A DNA stretch of 54,275 nucleotides, taken from the NCBI GenBank assembly GCA_024403755.1, contig JAKSRF010000003.1, positions 1-54,275 of the forward strand. The letters run 5' to 3'. The notes beneath the pieces were generated by a model. That model ran no database searches, was not told the DNA's origin, and worked only from the letters and a program-made list of their open reading frames with translations. Each line of letters begins with the position of its first letter. The stretch's first letter is position 1. Position numbers and translations under genes: made by a program. This DNA is from Clostridia bacterium (GTDB taxonomy: Bacteria; Bacillota; Clostridia; Saccharofermentanales; Saccharofermentanaceae). Below are positions 10,305-54,275 of this stretch, piece by piece.

Positions 10305-12362
10305 ATGTCTTTTTGTTTGGATGAGGAACAGTGTGATTTATTTCTTCATGCTTCACGTTCCGAGAAATATCGTTTCCCGTTCGGTGCACAGCCTACAGAC
10401 GGTGAGGTAAAGTTGAAATTCAGGGTTCCTTCCCAAACAAAAGAAGTTACTTTGTGTTATTCCTACGGTTTATACGATTTTACTTATCATGAAGAACCAA
10501 TGCGACTGGTTGAGACAACTTCAAGCTTCGACATGTATGAAGCAGATGTGATGGTGTCTCATGAACCCGGATTGGTTTTTTATTGGTTTAAATTCAGATT
10601 GAATACAGAATATTCTGAATTGTTCTATTATGTTGCAGATGCAGATACTGATTTCGGTACCGGAAAAATATATCATGAACCGCCTCGAATCGGTGCAAAT
10701 GAAGAAAAATATCCTTATGCATGGCAGATTACGGTTTACAAACGCGGTTATAAAACACCGGACTGTCTTAAAGGTGCTCAGATATATCAGATATTTCCTG
10801 ACAGATTTGCAAGAGACAGAGGTTTTAATTACAAGAAAATGACATCTTTTCCGGCTGGACCGGAGAGAATATATCATAAAGAGTGGAGTGAGGATGTTGA
10901 TATTGACGGTAAGGAAGAAACCGGCTATTTGGCATGTGACTTTTACGGCGGAAGTCTTGACGGTGTAAGAGAGAAACTTGAATATATTAAATCTTTAGGA
11001 ATCAACATAATATATATGAATCCTATCTGTCAGGCACGTTCGAGTCACCGCTATGATACGGCGGATTACCTTAATGTCGATCCTGTACTCGGAGGTAACA
11101 GTGCATTTGAAAGACTGGTTGCCGAAGCACATAAACTGGGTATCAAAATTGTTCTTGACGGTGTATTCAGTCATACAGGTGCAGACAGTAAGTACTTTAA
11201 TAAATTTGACAGATTTGAAGGAACCGGTGCGTATAAATCATATATTACCGGAGCGGAGAGTCTGTACAGATCTTGGTATAGCTTTATCGAAAACAGTGAC
11301 GATCAGGTTCTTTATCATTCATGGTGGGGATTTCCGGATCTTCCTAATGTTGATGAGAATGATTTATCTTATAGAAAATACATTTTCGGAAAAGGCGGTG
11401 TGGTTGATACATGGACTTCAATGGGAGCTGACGGAATAAGGCTTGATGTGTCGGACGAGTTGCCGGATGGCTTTATAAGACAGATGCGAGATACATTAAA
11501 GACATGTACTGCCGATGAGGGAATACTTATTGGCGAGGTTTGGGAGGATGCCAGCAACAAATGCAGTTATGGTTCCTACCGTGATTTTCTTTTGGGAAGA
11601 ACACATGATTCGGTAATGGGTTATACGTTCAGAGAGGAAATTTTGAATTTCCTTAAAGGTAACATAAATGCAGAGGTACTTAATTCCCGTATGGAAGGTT
11701 ATCGTGAACGTTATCCTGCAGAAAGCTTTTACTGCATAATGAATCTTATATCGTCACATGATGTGCCGCGTGCTTATACTGAACTTGCTTGTTTGGAAGA
11801 ACCGGACGAGCGACGGATGCAACGAGATATGTGGGTTCCGGAGAGTAGAGAAGCAGAGGTATCTGCTTTAATGAGAATGGCATATGCTTTTCAAATAGCT
11901 TATGTAGGTTGTCCTTCTGTTTATTATGGTGATGAGGTTCTCATGCAAGGCTATAAGGATCCTTTTAATCGTCGACCTTATCCATGGAATATGTTAGATG
12001 GTAAGATGCAAGCCCATCTTGAATTCGTTAGGAAATTGGCACAAATAAGAGAGGATAATCCTTGCCTTAAGACAGGCTTTATAGAAACTCTCTATGCTTC
12101 GGGAGATGTAATAGTATTCAGAAGATTTCTTAAAGACGGCAAAGACTTTTTTGGAAAAGAAATAGACAAAGGTGCTTCAGAAATTATTTTTGCAGTGAAT
12201 CGTGGAAATAAACCTGTTGATATTGAAGTCAGTGAAGAAGGTGATGTAGAGATTGTTGCAACAGATTGTTTGAAGAATGAAAAATCGGATTTCGTTTCTT
12301 ATGGTAAATCCGGCAAATTTAATGATAGAATAGATGCGATTGCATTTAAGTTTTTCTTGTAG
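10305..12362 (+). CDS. GH13 alpha-glycosidase (neopullulanase / maltodextrin-hydrolase type)
   Basis: This alpha-amylase superfamily enzyme has an N-terminal beta domain (about 1-140) and a TIM barrel (about 155-550). The GH13 regions are DGVFSH (about 285-290), GIRLDVSDEL with the nucleophile Asp near 380, LIGEVWED with the acid/base Glu near 410, and SSHDVPR with the stabilising Asp near 486. The N-terminal domain and the YQIFPDRFARD motif are typical of cyclomaltodextrinase, neopullulanase and amylopullulanase-like enzymes. No signal peptide is visible, so it should act in the cytoplasm, probably on maltodextrins or branched oligosaccharides from glycogen. It lies 28 bases after glgA in the same operon. 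Exact bond specificity cannot be read from sequence. Confidence 0.9.
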   Translation: MSFCLDEEQCDLFLHASRSEKYRFPFGAQPTDGEVKLKFRVPSQTKEVTLCYSYGLYDFTYHEEPMRLVETTSSFDMYEADVMVSHEPGLVFYWFKFRLNTEYSELFYYVADADTDFGTGKIYHEPPRIGANEEKYPYAWQITVYKRGYKTPDCLKGAQIYQIFPDRFARDRGFNYKKMTSFPAGPERIYHKEWSEDVDIDGKEETGYLACDFYGGSLDGVREKLEYIKSLGINIIYMNPICQARSSHRYDTADYLNVDPVLGGNSAFERLVAEAHKLGIKIVLDGVFSHTGADSKYFNKFDRFEGTGAYKSYITGAESLYRSWYSFIENSDDQVLYHSWWGFPDLPNVDENDLSYRKYIFGKGGVVDTWTSMGADGIRLDVSDELPDGFIRQMRDTLKTCTADEGILIGEVWEDASNKCSYGSYRDFLLGRTHDSVMGYTFREEILNFLKGNINAEVLNSRMEGYRERYPAESFYCIMNLISSHDVPRAYTELACLEEPDERRMQRDMWVPESREAEVSALMRMAYAFQIAYVGCPSVYYGDEVLMQGYKDPFNRRPYPWNMLDGKMQAHLEFVRKLAQIREDNPCLKTGFIETLYASGDVIVFRRFLKDGKDFFGKEIDKGASEIIFAVNRGNKPVDIEVSEEGDVEIVATDCLKNEKSDFVSYGKSGKFNDRIDAIAFKFFL

Positions 12363-13883: not shown

Positions 13884-16800
13884 ATGTTAAAATCAGTTAA
13901 GAAGAGATTAGCTTCATTTTTAGCCGCAGTTCTTTGTGTTTCGTCTTTGTTGCCGATAACAAACAATATGTTGAGAGCTGATGAGACGTATACTGATGGG
14001 TATTCCTTTTCGACGGTTCTTTCAAAATTTCAGTGCTTTGTCGAGAATGATTTGAATTATAACAATCATTGTGTAGGCGCTTTGGTAGCAGGCGGAACCG
14101 CTAATATTGATTGCTTCGGTGAAGGATCAATCTCACCTTCGTATTTCGGTAATCTTGCTAAGCTGAATAACTTTAATTCTCCTGCTTGGGTAAGCGGTGC
14201 GGGCGTTGATTATCTTTATTTCAACAATATAGACAGCAATCTTTATAACTTAATGGTAAATGCCGGAAGAGCTAACGCTTTCCGACAGAATCCGGGTTAT
14301 ATGAATGTTGCTTCTGCTTTTAATACACTTCGTTCTGATTCAGCAGATATTGCAAACAGTGCTAACAATTATATAGATGCAACTAAAATAGATACATATG
14401 GTACACTTCAGGTAGATTTGTTAAATGGTTCAAATGTTAAGATTGAGTATGATGCTTGGCTTAAAGCTGACAGAGTAAGTTTCTTCAATTCCAGTAACGG
14501 AGACTTTGGTCCTGCTTCGTTTGCTACCGGAAACTACGAAATCAGTATTGTAAATGTTGGTCTTGAGAGCGGAAATTCAGTTAATTTGGATTTCTACAAC
14601 AAAATTTATGTTAACGGTGTGCCTTTCAGCAATGAAAATGCTTTGAAGTCTTGTCTTAATGCAAGTAACGCAGGTCAGATTTACCTTGGTGGTGTAAACC
14701 TTGTGTGGAATTTACCGGATGCAGCTTTGGTAAACGCTACTCAGCTCCAAGGACATTTGCTTGCGCCTAGTGCTTCGGTAGTTGCTGAGGGTGGAAACTA
14801 TGAAGGTGGAATTATTGCGAAGAATCTTACTGCTTCTGCTGAAGGACATTTCTTCCCGTATAATCCTTCCAATGGTTCTATTCTTGCTTATTCAAATACA
14901 ATAAGCATTGCTAAGGTTGATGGTTCTTCAAATCCTGTAGCAGGTGCTAAGTTAAAGATTTCAGGTGTTACTTCAGAGAATAATACTATCTTTAATTTTA
15001 ATGAGGCTACGTACGATGCTTCGACAGCTGCAAGTGTTAACGTTAATCCGGGATATATTGAATGGGTAACCAATGATTCTGAATTTAAGGTTGGTAAACT
15101 CATTGAAGGTTCATATTTAGTTGAAGAATTAAGTGCGCCACAGGGTTATAAGACGGTTGCTCCGTTTTCATTTACAGTTAATCACGACAGAACAATTTCT
15201 TTTGAGAATACTAATAATGTTACTTTTGACGGCGATACATTGACATTTAAGGTAACTGATAATGAGTTGCCGAGAACTGTGGTATCTATTTCAAAGCAGG
15301 ATGTTGATCATAAGGGAAGAGAACTTGAAGGTGCTTCAATGAAGCTTGTCGGAGTTGATACATCAAGAAATACCATTATCTTCAGTGAGAAGAATGTTAC
15401 TCCGGGTGCTGATGCTACAGATTTTTCTTACGGTGAGTCTTTGATTTGGACTTCAGGTACAACTGCAACATCAGTTGCACTTCTTGACGGTACTTATACT
15501 CTTACCGAGGAAGTTGCACCTACAAAGTACGATAAGGTAGTTACGAGTTTTACATTTACGGTTAACCAGGGTAAGGTTACTACGTCTTCTACAGATGCAA
15601 GTTATATGTTGGATTCAGCTTCCAATAAGATTGCTATGTTTGATGAACTTCTTCCTACTCCTACACCTACGGTAGAGGTATCCATTTCAAAGCAGGATAT
15701 TACAAGCGGTGAAGAGATTAAGGGTGCTTCTCTTACTTTGATCGGTAAGGATGTAAATGGTGCAGATATAAATTTTGCAGATACTGATATAGTTGCTTTA
15801 GGTGATGAGGCAGTTGTTTCTTCTTACGGCAAGTCGTTAGTATGGACATCAGGTTATACTGCTACTAAGGTTGGTCTTGTAGATGGTTCTTATGAGTTGA
15901 AAGAAACTGTTGCTCCTGAAGGATATGATGCAGTTACTTCTGTATTCTCATTTACAATTAAGGATGGAGTTATTTCTTCAAATGTACAGAGTAAATTCTA
16001 TTCATTTACCGATAATGTAATTGTGGTATTTAATGAATTAACTCCTGTTACTCCTACACCTACTCCTACTGTAGAAGTATCAATCTCAAAGCAGGATTTG
16101 GCTGATAAGGGAAGTGAACTTGCAGGTGCTCAGATGGTTCTTAACGGCTATGAGGATGCAAGCAAGACAAGTAAGATTACTCTTGATAAAGATGCAATTA
16201 TATTGGGTGAGGGTGCTAAGCTTGTTTCAAGCGGTGACTCTTTGATTTGGGTTTCCGGAACAAAGACAACAAAGGTTAATCTTCCTGATGGTTTCTATAC
16301 ACTCTCAGAGGGTTATGCTCCTGAAGAGTATGTTTCTGTAACAACTGTATTTGAATTCGAGATTACAAACGGTGTAGTTTCTTCTTCAGATGTTTGTGAT
16401 ATTTTCAGTGTTTCTGACGATTATGTAGTTTTGTTTAACGAGCTTAAGCCTACAATAACGCCGGAACCGACAGATACACCGGTTCCTACTTATGAAGTTA
16501 AGCTTTCTAAGCAGGATATTGCAGACAAGGGTGCTGAGATTCCGGGTGCGGAGATGAAGCTTACCGGTGTTGATGTTAACGGTGTAATCGTTGAGTTTAC
16601 TGCTGCTGATGTAAGCGCACCGAAGGATGCCAAGATAGAGTCTTACGGATCAAGTTTGGTATGGACTTCAGGTTCTGATTCAATAAAGGTTAATCTTGTT
16701 GACGGTGAGTATAAGCTTATCGAGGTTAATGCTCCGATTGATTATTTGCCGGTAACAACAGAGTTCACGTTTACAGTAAAAGACGGTGTAGTAAGCACTG

Positions 16801-19800
16801 ATGAGACAAGTGTTAACTTCTATGCTGCGAATGGTTTGGTTGCTTTGTTCGATGAGCTTCGTCCTACTCCTACACCAACTGTATATGTTTTTGTTTCAAA
16901 ACAGGATATTGACAATAAGGGTATAGAACTTAAGGGTGCTACACTTGAACTTACAGGTGTTGATGCTGACAATGTTGCTGTTTCATTTGACAATGTTGAA
17001 GTTAAGTTAGGAAGCGGAGCTTCGAGAGTTAATACTGACAGTTCAGTATTAAGTTGGATTTCAGGTACTACAGCTACTAAGGTTGGTCTTGTAGACGGTA
17101 CTTATTATCTTAAGGAAGTTGTTGCTCCTACTTACTATAACGGAGTAACTACTACATTTGAGTTTACAATCAAGAACGGTGTGGTATCTACTTCAGTTGT
17201 TGATAAGTGTTTTACGGTTGAGAAGGATGTAGTGGCTTTGTTTAATGAATTGGCTCCTACAGAGGTATCAATTTCTAAGCAGGATATAGATAATCAGGGT
17301 AATGAGCTTAAGGGTGCTACACTCGAGCTTTCAGGTGCTGATGTAAACGGTGATGCTATCATTATTGACAGTTCATGTGTAGTTCTCGGTGATGAGGCTG
17401 TTATGGGTAAGGCTGAAGCTGAGGGCGGTATCAGATGGACGTCAGGTTTAACAGATACTAAGTTTACTTTGGATGACGGTTTATATACCCTTAAGGAAAT
17501 TGTCGCTCCGACAGGTTATGATAAGGTTGTTACTATCTTTACATTTACTGTTATGAACGGAACAATTTCTACTAAGGTTGATTCATTATCATATGCATTA
17601 GATTCAGATTCTAATTCAATTGTAGTATTGAATAACCTTACCAAGAGTACGGTTTCTATTTCAAAGCAGGATATTGATAATAAGGGTCCTGAACTTCCTG
17701 GCGCTGAAATGTCTCTTGAGGGCGTTGATGTAAATAATAATCCGATTGTTTTCTATGATAAGGATGTTACAAGAGGTAACGGTGCTGTTATTGAGTCCGC
17801 TCCGAATTCTAAGGTTCTTGTTTGGGTATCAGGTACAACTGCTACAAAGGTAAAACTTATTGACGGTACATATACTTTAACTGAGAATTATGCTCCTAAG
17901 GATTATGAGAAGGTAACAACAACATTTATATTCACTGTAGCTAATGGTGTGGTTACTTCTTCGATGAGCAGTTCAGAGTTTGCTGTTACAGATGATTCTG
18001 TTGTATTGTTTAACGCACCGATACCTGTTCCGTCAAAGACACCTGTAAGTATTTCAAAACAGGATATAGCCGATAAGGGTCCTGAACTTCCTGGTGCAAC
18101 ATTGGTATTAACCGGTGTTGATGCAGATAATAATCCGGTTGTATTTGAGTCTACGGATGTAGCTGTAGGAAAAGATGCTACTCTCCTTGATACAGGTGAT
18201 AATACTGTATTAAGTTGGATATCAGGCAGTGATGCAACAGCAGTAAATATGATTGATGGTACATATACTTTGGAGGAAACATATGCTCCGAAGGGTTATG
18301 ATAAGGTTACTACGACATTTACCTTTACTGTTACAAACGGTGTAGTTGATACAAAGGAAACAAGTGTTAACTTCTCAGCTGAGAACGGATTGGTTGCATT
18401 GTTTGATGAACTTATTCCTACTCCGACACCTACAATTGCAGTAACTGTTTCAAAGCAGGATTTTGATGATAAGGGTGATGAACTTAAGGGCGCTACATTA
18501 AGTCTTACAGGCGAGAATGTAAACGGTGAGGTCATTACATTCAGCAGTTCTGATGTTGAACTCGGTACTGATGCATATTTAGTTGATAACGGTGATGATA
18601 CAGTATTGACATGGGTATCAGGTACAACTTCAACAAAGATAAATCTTGCAGACGGTAAATACTCTTTGAAAGAAGATTATGCGCCTGAATATTATGATAA
18701 GGTTACAACAGTATTCACATTTACTATTACAAACGGAGTTGTATCAACAAGTGAAGTAAGTGATTATTTCACAGCTTCAGATGATATGGTAGCGCTCTTC
18801 GATAAGCTTCTCCCGATTCCGACTGTTGAGGTTTCTATTTCAAAGCAGGATATTGATGCAAAGGGTGATGAGCTTAAGGGTGCAACTTTAAGTCTCTCAG
18901 GTAAGGATGTTAACGGTGATGCTGTTACGTTTGACAATGCTGATGTAACATTAGGTAAGGATGCTGTGCTTGTAGATAATTCTGATAGTTCAGTATTGAG
19001 CTGGGTATCAGGTACAACATTAACTAAGGTAAATCTTGTTGATGGTACATATACTCTCAGAGAGGATTATGCTCCTGAAGGATATGATGTAGTTACAACA
19101 GTATTCACATTTACTATTACAAACGGAGTTGTATCAACAAGTGAAGTAAGTGATTATTTCACAGCTTCAGATGATATGGTAGCGCTCTTCGATAAGCTTC
19201 TCCCGATTCCGACTGTTGAGGTTTCTATTTCAAAGCAGGATATTGATGCAAAGGGTGATGAGCTTAAGGGTGCAACTTTAAGTCTCTCAGGTAAGGATGT
19301 TAACGGTGATGCTGTTACGTTTGACAATGCTGATGTAACATTAGGTAAGGATGCTGTGCTTGTAGATAATTCTGATAGTTCAGTATTGAGCTGGGTATCA
19401 GGTACAACATTAACTAAGGTAAATCTTGTTGATGGTACATATACTCTCAGAGAGGATTATGCTCCTGAAGGATATGATGTAGTTACAACGGTATTTACTT
19501 TTACTATTGAGAACAGTGTTGTATCAACAAGTGAAGTAAGTGAGTTCTTTACTGTATCAGACGGTGTTGTTGCCTTGTATAATGAGCTTATAAGAACAAT
19601 TACTCCACCGACAACACCAACACCTACATCTACACCGACCCCTACACCTACAAAGGCTCCAACGCCTACACCTACATCTACTCCGACAGAGACTCCTACG
19701 CCTACTCCGGCTGTTTATGAAGTAAATCTTTCAAAGCAGGATTTGGCTGGTAACGGGGAGGAACTTCCTGGCGCTAAGATGGAACTTACAGGTACTGACG

Positions 19801-20654
19801 ATAATGGTGTATCTGTAGTATTTGAAGCGGATGATGTTGTTCTTCCTTCAGATGCTAAGCTTGTTTCAGTAGGCAAATCATTTGAGTGGATATCAGGATC
19901 TAAGGCTGCTGTAGTAAATCTTCCAAACGGTGACTATTCTTTGAGAGAAGAAGTTGCACCTGACGGATATGATATAGTTACAACTACATTTACATTTAAT
20001 GTTAAGAATGGCGTTATTTCAACAAGTGAGGTAAGTGAGAACTTTACCGTTTCCGGTAATACTGTTGCTCTGTTTGATGCTTTACTTAAGGATCCGACAA
20101 CAACTGCTACACCTACACCTACACAGCCGACGCTTGTTCAGGGTACAACAGTTACACCTGTTCCTACAGAGACAGTTGATGTTACTGTTATTGTTCTTAA
20201 GGAAGAGGATGAGACACCTATTGAGAAGGCTGAAGTAGTTGTAATTGACAATTCAACAAATACAGTTTACGAGTCTTTTGAGACAGATGGTAACGGTTCA
20301 TATATATTAGAGGATCTTCCTGTAGGTAACTATACTGTTGTTCAAACTACAACAATTGACGGTTATCATATTGATGAGACTGAATACACAGTAGTTGTTG
20401 CAGGTGCTGATCTTGTTACAATAGACGGATTGATTACTACTACATTGACAATCTATAATCCGACAGAGAGACCTGAAGTTACTCCTAATCCTACACCTAC
20501 ACCGGAGAAGGCAACTTCTAATATTACATCCAGTCATTCTGTTACAAGAACAGGTGAGAGTGTATCACTCTCTTACATCATGGCTATAGTACTTTTTGCA
20601 ATTGCTGGATTTATGCTTACTGCAGCTCCGGGCAAAAAGAGAGAAGAAGATTAA
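13884..20654 (+). CDS. Giant cell-surface protein: choice-of-anchor A-like head plus SpaA/CnaB-like repeats
   Basis: This 2256-residue protein begins with a signal peptide (about 1-32). The head (about 35-335) resembles choice-of-anchor A domains: VGALVAGGTANIDCFGEG at the start and LLAPSASVVAEGGNYEGGII at the end. A first divergent SpaA-like module starts near 337 (ISIAKVD), then twelve modules begin with SKQD and run 115-130 residues each. They keep the marks of self-made isopeptide bonds: Lys in SKQD, Glu in the LxE..AP motif, and Asn/Asp in LF(N/D)EL at the end. Pro/Thr-rich linkers (TPTPTP) lie between several modules. A different beta module (about 2096-2192) precedes the C-terminus. 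The end (2220-2256) reads VTRTGE, a hydrophobic helix and KKREED: a cell-wall sorting signal, but with Thr where LPXTG has Pro. Two modules are exact duplicates at DNA level. No sortase is nearby. Confidence 0.9.
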   Translation: MLKSVKKRLASFLAAVLCVSSLLPITNNMLRADETYTDGYSFSTVLSKFQCFVENDLNYNNHCVGALVAGGTANIDCFGEGSISPSYFGNLAKLNNFNSPAWVSGAGVDYLYFNNIDSNLYNLMVNAGRANAFRQNPGYMNVASAFNTLRSDSADIANSANNYIDATKIDTYGTLQVDLLNGSNVKIEYDAWLKADRVSFFNSSNGDFGPASFATGNYEISIVNVGLESGNSVNLDFYNKIYVNGVPFSNENALKSCLNASNAGQIYLGGVNLVWNLPDAALVNATQLQGHLLAPSASVVAEGGNYEGGIIAKNLTASAEGHFFPYNPSNGSILAYSNTISIAKVDGSSNPVAGAKLKISGVTSENNTIFNFNEATYDASTAASVNVNPGYIEWVTNDSEFKVGKLIEGSYLVEELSAPQGYKTVAPFSFTVNHDRTISFENTNNVTFDGDTLTFKVTDNELPRTVVSISKQDVDHKGRELEGASMKLVGVDTSRNTIIFSEKNVTPGADATDFSYGESLIWTSGTTATSVALLDGTYTLTEEVAPTKYDKVVTSFTFTVNQGKVTTSSTDASYMLDSASNKIAMFDELLPTPTPTVEVSISKQDITSGEEIKGASLTLIGKDVNGADINFADTDIVALGDEAVVSSYGKSLVWTSGYTATKVGLVDGSYELKETVAPEGYDAVTSVFSFTIKDGVISSNVQSKFYSFTDNVIVVFNELTPVTPTPTPTVEVSISKQDLADKGSELAGAQMVLNGYEDASKTSKITLDKDAIILGEGAKLVSSGDSLIWVSGTKTTKVNLPDGFYTLSEGYAPEEYVSVTTVFEFEITNGVVSSSDVCDIFSVSDDYVVLFNELKPTITPEPTDTPVPTYEVKLSKQDIADKGAEIPGAEMKLTGVDVNGVIVEFTAADVSAPKDAKIESYGSSLVWTSGSDSIKVNLVDGEYKLIEVNAPIDYLPVTTEFTFTVKDGVVSTDETSVNFYAANGLVALFDELRPTPTPTVYVFVSKQDIDNKGIELKGATLELTGVDADNVAVSFDNVEVKLGSGASRVNTDSSVLSWISGTTATKVGLVDGTYYLKEVVAPTYYNGVTTTFEFTIKNGVVSTSVVDKCFTVEKDVVALFNELAPTEVSISKQDIDNQGNELKGATLELSGADVNGDAIIIDSSCVVLGDEAVMGKAEAEGGIRWTSGLTDTKFTLDDGLYTLKEIVAPTGYDKVVTIFTFTVMNGTISTKVDSLSYALDSDSNSIVVLNNLTKSTVSISKQDIDNKGPELPGAEMSLEGVDVNNNPIVFYDKDVTRGNGAVIESAPNSKVLVWVSGTTATKVKLIDGTYTLTENYAPKDYEKVTTTFIFTVANGVVTSSMSSSEFAVTDDSVVLFNAPIPVPSKTPVSISKQDIADKGPELPGATLVLTGVDADNNPVVFESTDVAVGKDATLLDTGDNTVLSWISGSDATAVNMIDGTYTLEETYAPKGYDKVTTTFTFTVTNGVVDTKETSVNFSAENGLVALFDELIPTPTPTIAVTVSKQDFDDKGDELKGATLSLTGENVNGEVITFSSSDVELGTDAYLVDNGDDTVLTWVSGTTSTKINLADGKYSLKEDYAPEYYDKVTTVFTFTITNGVVSTSEVSDYFTASDDMVALFDKLLPIPTVEVSISKQDIDAKGDELKGATLSLSGKDVNGDAVTFDNADVTLGKDAVLVDNSDSSVLSWVSGTTLTKVNLVDGTYTLREDYAPEGYDVVTTVFTFTITNGVVSTSEVSDYFTASDDMVALFDKLLPIPTVEVSISKQDIDAKGDELKGATLSLSGKDVNGDAVTFDNADVTLGKDAVLVDNSDSSVLSWVSGTTLTKVNLVDGTYTLREDYAPEGYDVVTTVFTFTIENSVVSTSEVSEFFTVSDGVVALYNELIRTITPPTTPTPTSTPTPTPTKAPTPTPTSTPTETPTPTPAVYEVNLSKQDLAGNGEELPGAKMELTGTDDNGVSVVFEADDVVLPSDAKLVSVGKSFEWISGSKAAVVNLPNGDYSLREEVAPDGYDIVTTTFTFNVKNGVISTSEVSENFTVSGNTVALFDALLKDPTTTATPTPTQPTLVQGTTVTPVPTETVDVTVIVLKEEDETPIEKAEVVVIDNSTNTVYESFETDGNGSYILEDLPVGNYTVVQTTTIDGYHIDETEYTVVVAGADLVTIDGLITTTLTIYNPTERPEVTPNPTPTPEKATSNITSSHSVTRTGESVSLSYIMAIVLFAIAGFMLTAAPGKKREED
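18702..19489 (+). repeat. Perfect 390-base tandem duplication inside the surface-protein gene
   Basis: Bases 18702-19099 and 19092-19489 are identical over 398 bases at an offset of 390 (130 codons, exactly one module). Reading both copies line by line I found no mismatch; the flanking bases differ (18701 G against 19091 A, 19100 A against 19490 G). The other modules differ substantially from these at DNA level, so the copy is recent. Confidence 0.95.
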
Positions 20655-20874: not shown

Positions 20875-20957
20875 GCGGATGTGGCGGAATAGGCAGACGC
20901 GCACGTTTGAGGGGCGTGTGGGAGACCGTACGGGTTCAAGTCCCGTCATCCGCACCA
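20875..20957 (+). tRNA. tRNA-Leu (anticodon GAG)
   Basis: The acceptor stem GCGGATG pairs with CATCCGC and is followed by encoded ACCA. The anticodon stem CACGT/GCGTG encloses the loop TTGAGGG, giving anticodon GAG (leucine, CTC/CTT codons). A long variable arm and the T-arm (CGGG-TTCAAGT-CCCG) fit a class II leucine tRNA of 83 bases including CCA. Confidence 0.95.
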
Positions 20958-54051: not shown

Positions 54052-54168
54052 ATTTGGCTGTAAACCACGGAATCCTGCAAATCAGCTGTGCTTTATCGTA
54101 AGCGCTTAACAATCCGGTGCCTATAAATGGGAGAAAAACAATGCAATACTTTGGAAAAAGTCTAATAT

Positions 54169-54182
54169 GGTCTAATTAGACC
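54169..54182. promoter_or_regulatory. TCTAA repeats and palindrome before the IS gene
   Basis: GGTCTAATTAGACC (54169-54182) is a perfect 14-base palindrome. TCTAA occurs at 54161, 54171, 54196 and 54206, pairs being exactly 10 bases apart. This may be a binding site for the element's own small protein. Confidence 0.45.
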
Positions 54183-54210
54183 TGATTGGACAGAATCTAA
54201 GGAGGTCTAA

Positions 54211-54275
54211 ATGGACAGTATTGCAGTTGTTAAGAATAATGTGAAGTATGCATCCTGGATAAGTATGGTTAATGC
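54211..54275 (+). CDS. Start of an IS66-type accessory protein (TnpA-like), partial
   Basis: The visible part, MDSIAVVKNNVKYASWISMVN, resembles the N-terminus of the small IS66 TnpA accessory protein, which typically opens with a VVK-type helix and a W-containing segment. A near-perfect AAGGAGGT lies 4 bases before the ATG. Only 21 residues are in the window, so the call depends on the neighbouring GTAAGCG terminus. Confidence 0.5.
   Translation, partial: MDSIAVVKNNVKYASWISMVN

Follow-up and report, generated by a model that had tools for sequence, protein, structure and literature searches.

In-frame duplication of DNA is an ordinary and familiar route to length change in stalk-like surface proteins. 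Variation in stalk length through the gain and loss of repeats is established for the Periscope Proteins (SasG, Rib and Sgo_0707; Whelan et al. 2021, PMC8201768), and fibrillar adhesins of a general architecture like that of the protein analysed here have been described (PMC9210967). As far as the former source describes them, Periscope Proteins share with our adhesin an N-terminal putative binding domain, a stalk of tandem folded domains and an end resembling a wall anchor, together with orthologues that differ in module number and neighbouring modules that are highly identical. They are unlike it in that only one pair of its neighbours, W10–W11, exceeds 80% amino acid identity, the rest having diverged as in ordinary multidomain proteins. 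With the SpaA/CnaB-stalk fibrillar adhesins, as presented in the same literature (PMC9210967; PF17802; PDB 6fwv), it has the architecture and stalk fold in common, and 6fwv was its best match by sequence in the PDB; unlike them, it carries a choice-of-anchor-A/pAdhesive_15 head and ends in TRTGE, not LPxTG.

The adhesin gene lies on the plus strand of the window, by which we mean the whole 54,275-nt stretch of DNA that was analysed, and its bearer is a gut-type bacterium. We resolved the following features.

13884–20654, plus strand: reading frame of the predicted surface adhesin, 2,256 amino acids, carrying the duplication (ORF; Pfam; NCBIfam TIGR04215)
14016–14852, plus strand: N-terminal choice-of-anchor-A/ice-binding-like putative adhesive domain, residues 45–323 (PF20597 pAdhesive_15, E = 3.3e-16; TIGR04215, E = 3.1e-16)
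14898–18437, plus strand: SpaA/CnaB-type stalk modules W0–W8 (segmentation; SpaA matches)
18438–18827, plus strand: module W9, from which the duplicated tail at 18702–18827 derives (three-way register)
18702–19091, plus strand: duplicated 390-nt unit, first copy (exact match to 19092–19481)
18828–19217, plus strand: module W10, chimeric, with its head from the old tenth module and its tail from W9 (segmentation; three-way register)
19092–19481, plus strand: duplicated 390-nt unit, second copy (exact match to the first)
19092–19099, plus strand: junction, the 8 nt GTTACAAC (three-way register of W9, W10 and W11)
19218–19610, plus strand: module W11, which is the old tenth module and keeps its original tail (segmentation; three-way register)
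19719–20120, plus strand: module W12, the last of the SKQD type (segmentation; SpaA matches)
20193–20405, plus strand: C-terminal SpaA/carboxypeptidase-regulatory-like domain (profile matches)
20544–20651, plus strand: TRTGE sorting-like motif, hydrophobic stretch and charged tail (translation; similar endings in L029 and C96, both introduced below)

Pfam PF17802 (SpaA) matched 14 stretches of the adhesin (E = 3.6e-109, above the curated cut-off). We segmented 13 modules of the SKQD/AKVD type (W0–W12) and one further SpaA-like domain; a PT-rich linker follows W11 and extends to 19718. The C terminus consists of TRTGE, a hydrophobic stretch and a KKREED tail, and this motif is not the canonical LPxTG. 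Two sortase genes are present in the genome. The adhesin is predicted to be sortase-anchored, and its N-terminal domain would bind some target. Several of its neighbours, among 10 proteins scanned, were housekeeping proteins, including starch synthase, alpha-amylase, Tex and phosphorylase; the locus is therefore not a pilus operon. A tRNA gene (20875–20954) lies directly 3′ of the adhesin gene. Ends with TRTGE or ARTGE and a hydrophobic stretch were seen in the window (20544–20558) and in several proteins among L029, L033, L036, L037 and C96 (L059), whereas genus relatives end in LPATGE, IPATGE or MPATGE instead. The TRTGE/ARTGE endings are possibly a separate type of sorting signal; a search for TRTGE together with sortase in a library of papers returned no match.

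When the window was compared with itself, 18702–19099 and 19092–19489 were identical over 398 nt with zero mismatches at a lag of 390. This tract was the sole exact repeat of at least 30 nt in the window, and a 390-nt period was also called by TRF (18448–19543). With 0 of 398 nt differing between the copies, the 95% upper bound on their divergence is 0.75%. Nucleotide identity ranged from 50.0 to 64.5% across the 63 other pairs among W1–W12 (those involving W0 and those within W9–W11 being excluded), and reached 73.7% (about 73% in register) between W9 and W11, the old tenth module. The 398-nt identity is far beyond chance and real in the present sequence. The sequence-only reading had reported a 390-base tandem repeat with 398 identical bases among strongly diverged modules; its coordinates and lengths were right, and so was the divergence. 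Its description of two identical neighbouring modules is not fully accurate, for the exact tract crosses module borders and the new module is a chimera. Compared module with module, W10 and W11 share 93% of nucleotides and 88% of amino acids; they fall short of identity because the borders of the repeat do not coincide with those of the protein modules. Nowhere else in the array are modules as alike as within the trio W9, W10 and W11 (74–93% nucleotide identity).

The phase of the repeat allowed us to read the breakpoint. The three-way register of W9, W10 and W11 showed W10 to equal W11 up to 19099 and W9 from 19092 onwards, and the last 126 nt of W9 and W10 are exactly alike. W10 is thus a chimera: it begins as the old tenth module and ends as W9, the two parts meeting at an 8-nt common sequence. 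These 8 nt, GTTACAAC, occur at 18702–18709, 19092–19099 and 19482–19489, that is, at the junction and at either end. The 398-nt tract comprises one full 390-nt unit plus the 8 nt common to the breakpoint. This long monomeric fibrillar adhesin very probably gained its extra stalk module in a single step, when 390 bp (130 codons) were duplicated in tandem, in frame and very recently. In an out-of-register exchange or a replication slip, W9 and the old tenth module, one repeat apart, would have come to lie against each other, and fusion of the latter's head to the tail of W9 would then have given the chimeric W10. The longest exact block between W9 and the old tenth module measures 26 nt and lies just downstream of the 8-nt exchange block; another, of 17 nt, lies upstream of it. 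As the exchange fell in the 8-nt block and the longest one was not used, slippage on short homology would fit, and so would a recombination event that was resolved outside the longest block.

Conversion among repeats is common, and the 26-nt exact block common to W9 and W11 would suit it. We therefore weighed the possibility that gene conversion homogenised two existing neighbouring modules and that no module was gained, in favour of which there is also a weak hint, not significant after correction, of an older exchange of tails between W4 and W8. Conversion tracts vary arbitrarily in length, however, and the length found here, one unit and 8 nt, is precisely what a duplication demands; conversion would reach 390 + 8 nt only by coincidence. 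For this reason we rank duplication above conversion, which we regard as highly improbable. The very recent tandem duplication proposed by the sequence-only reading is well supported by the length of the tract and its complete identity. We note that the tails of W4 (16494–16883) and W8 (18042–18437) share 81% of amino acids and their heads 50%. An exchange between them gave z = 3.7 and 55 of 2,000 permutations for the chosen pair, and was not significant over the 66 pairs. An older duplication of a four-module block left no clear signal, the means at offset 4 being 53.0 for heads and 53.0 for tails, slightly above most.

The repeat lies on one contig of a 168-contig draft and, at 398 exact nucleotides, is longer than an ordinary short read; such repeats are among those described as misresolved by short reads (PMC9704523, PMC6868369). 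An assembly artefact could take the form of a single copy falsely expanded or of a longer identical array collapsed to two, and a second adhesin array of the same genome, which seems to be split between the starts of contigs C109 and C96 with no exact overlap between the ends, adds to this concern. False expansion is unlikely because a template with a single copy cannot give the junction of a W11 head and a W9 tail, which is unique to the duplication product; only 8 nt are common at that junction. Of the artefact that the sequence-only reading had allowed for, false expansion therefore loses ground, since actual reads must underlie the chimeric junction, and collapse from more than two copies is possible, so that the exact copy number would be two or more. 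Taken together, we judge an artefact to be improbable.

The second adhesin is of the choice-of-anchor-A SpaA type, with its front at G000:C109:1–2033 (L048) and an end of matching type at G000:C96:1–930 (L059). From their sequences, the two pieces seem to belong to one gene cut within its SpaA array, and such arrays would therefore assemble poorly in this genome. In search of the assembler's k-mer size, we compared 20 ends from 10 contigs for shared sequence and found no clean end overlap; the only shared stretches among these 20 ends, of 73 and 37 nt, were between the end of C92 and the start of C56. Compared with its own genome, the start of the window had no other match and its end matched repeats only. 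Near the contig end, 125 nt of the window (54097–54221) are 98% identical to C56:279–403 and are probably a dispersed repeat.

FbaB CnaB2 is the parent of SpyTag/SpyCatcher. An AlphaFold model of a single module (mean pLDDT 93) had this domain (2x5p) as its best PDB match in Foldseek, SpyTag/SpyCatcher structures ranking below it. A two-module model, which bears on the elongated rod of stalk domains expected of a Periscope Protein, reached a pLDDT of 90.1 but a pTM of 0.58, too low to demonstrate a straight rod. FbaB CnaB2 (PDB 2x5p, 4mli) also matched by sequence (E = 2.2e-6), with Lys and Glu at matching places and Asp in half of the window and orthologue modules. In contrast, it has 104 residues where the window module has 130, the two are 28% identical, and in the window module the bond is predicted only. 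CnaB-like domains are described as carrying a triad of Lys, Glu and Asn or Asp (PMC12617251). Across 12 modules of the window and 8 of the orthologue (W0 and O0 left out), Lys6, Glu79 and an Asp or Asn at residue 122 were present in 20 of 20 each, residue 122 being Asp in 10 modules and Asn in the other 10. The predicted isopeptide triad is thus conserved, with the bonds themselves predicted from these residues alone.

The breakpoint encodes V89–T91 of the module. The fold would be kept because this position lies after the catalytic-type Glu79 and before residue 122, the acceptor. The acceptor is Asp in W9, Asn in W11 and Asp in the chimeric W10, and the new module would owe its Asp to W9, in place of the Asn found in its parent. 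The CnaB modules would form a covalently locked stalk, which one added module would make longer by one domain. The duplicated unit of DNA need not match the protein domain, and growth would also yield hybrid modules with an altered crosslink acceptor. Here the stalk of a Clostridia-type adhesin appears to have been caught soon enough after lengthening for the breakpoint to be read base by base. The process is already accepted for bacterial fibrillar adhesins, and the locus offers a neat and testable fresh example of it and no new process.

To place the array among its relatives, we used genome collections with one genome per species. One orthologue was found in the species-level collection, in a Clostridia genome assembled from horse-faeces metagenomes (L029). 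This nearest orthologue is 59% identical to the window adhesin and its locus is syntenic, 11 neighbouring genes being alike in order and strand when three antisense reading frames are excluded. It has 9 modules and the window gene 13. The sequence-only reading had judged stalk length likely to vary among strains; the difference seen here is one between two species. In a module tree of low resolution, with good support for 3 of 19 inner branches and a bootstrap that had not settled, W0/O0, W1/O1 and W12/O8 paired strongly and W2/O2, W5/O5 and W6/O6 moderately. These pairings place the four-module difference between O6 and O8, through gain here, loss in L029 or both. The orthologues also differ in linker length besides module number: in L029 (14150–14600), 48-nt repeats (PTPEVTEE/PTPEVTEI) make up a long linker, and at the corresponding place the PT-rich linker of the window gene is shorter.

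These differences bear on whether the array is a selected device of length variation that switches frequently, that is, an active Periscope Protein, a reading that extends the duplication and does not oppose it. Periscope repeats are described as tandem, longer than 50 residues and at least 80% identical (PMC8201768), and W10–W11, at 88% of amino acids, falls within this range by pairwise identity, as distinct from T-REKS. By the second criterion, repeat number should vary among closely related proteins, 90% identical; the nearest orthologue here is 59% identical, with 9 modules against 13. The 13 and 9 modules of two syntenic orthologues speak for a switching array, as do the resemblance of W9–W11 to nested duplications of differing age, an exact repeat that now favours more gain or loss, and the listing of SpaA among Periscope stalk folds in a review (PMC9704523). 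Against it, W10–W11 is the only neighbour pair at 80% amino acid identity or above (W9–W10 is at 78%), and most modules are strongly diverged. The adhesin is a candidate Periscope Protein, one more fibrillar adhesin whose stalk would vary in length, and we hold active, selected switching to be possible but less probable than its absence. More doubtful still is an active growth zone spanning W7–W11, in which out-of-phase duplications would lengthen the stalk, each building a chimera from the head of one module and the tail of the next, with the join past the catalytic Glu and ahead of the acceptor, and so shuffling Lys–Asn and Lys–Asp crosslinks.

A query with the N-terminal part of the adhesin matched in 34 of 85 genomes of the genus, its own included, mostly through the SpaA part. 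We measured the longest exact repeat at lags of 250–600 nt in 22 stretches, comprising the window gene, the orthologue gene and 20 fetched stretches. Exact repeats longer than 300 nt occurred in 2 of the 22, the fetched stretches having been picked by hand from the genus matches and not drawn at random; the next longest was 99 nt. The two were the window gene and L040 (G084:C24), another large SpaA-type surface protein of the genus, whose near-exact tandem module duplication has 386 exact nucleotides at a lag of 396 (reverse complement, 10704–11089 and 11100–11485). Such events are therefore not unique.
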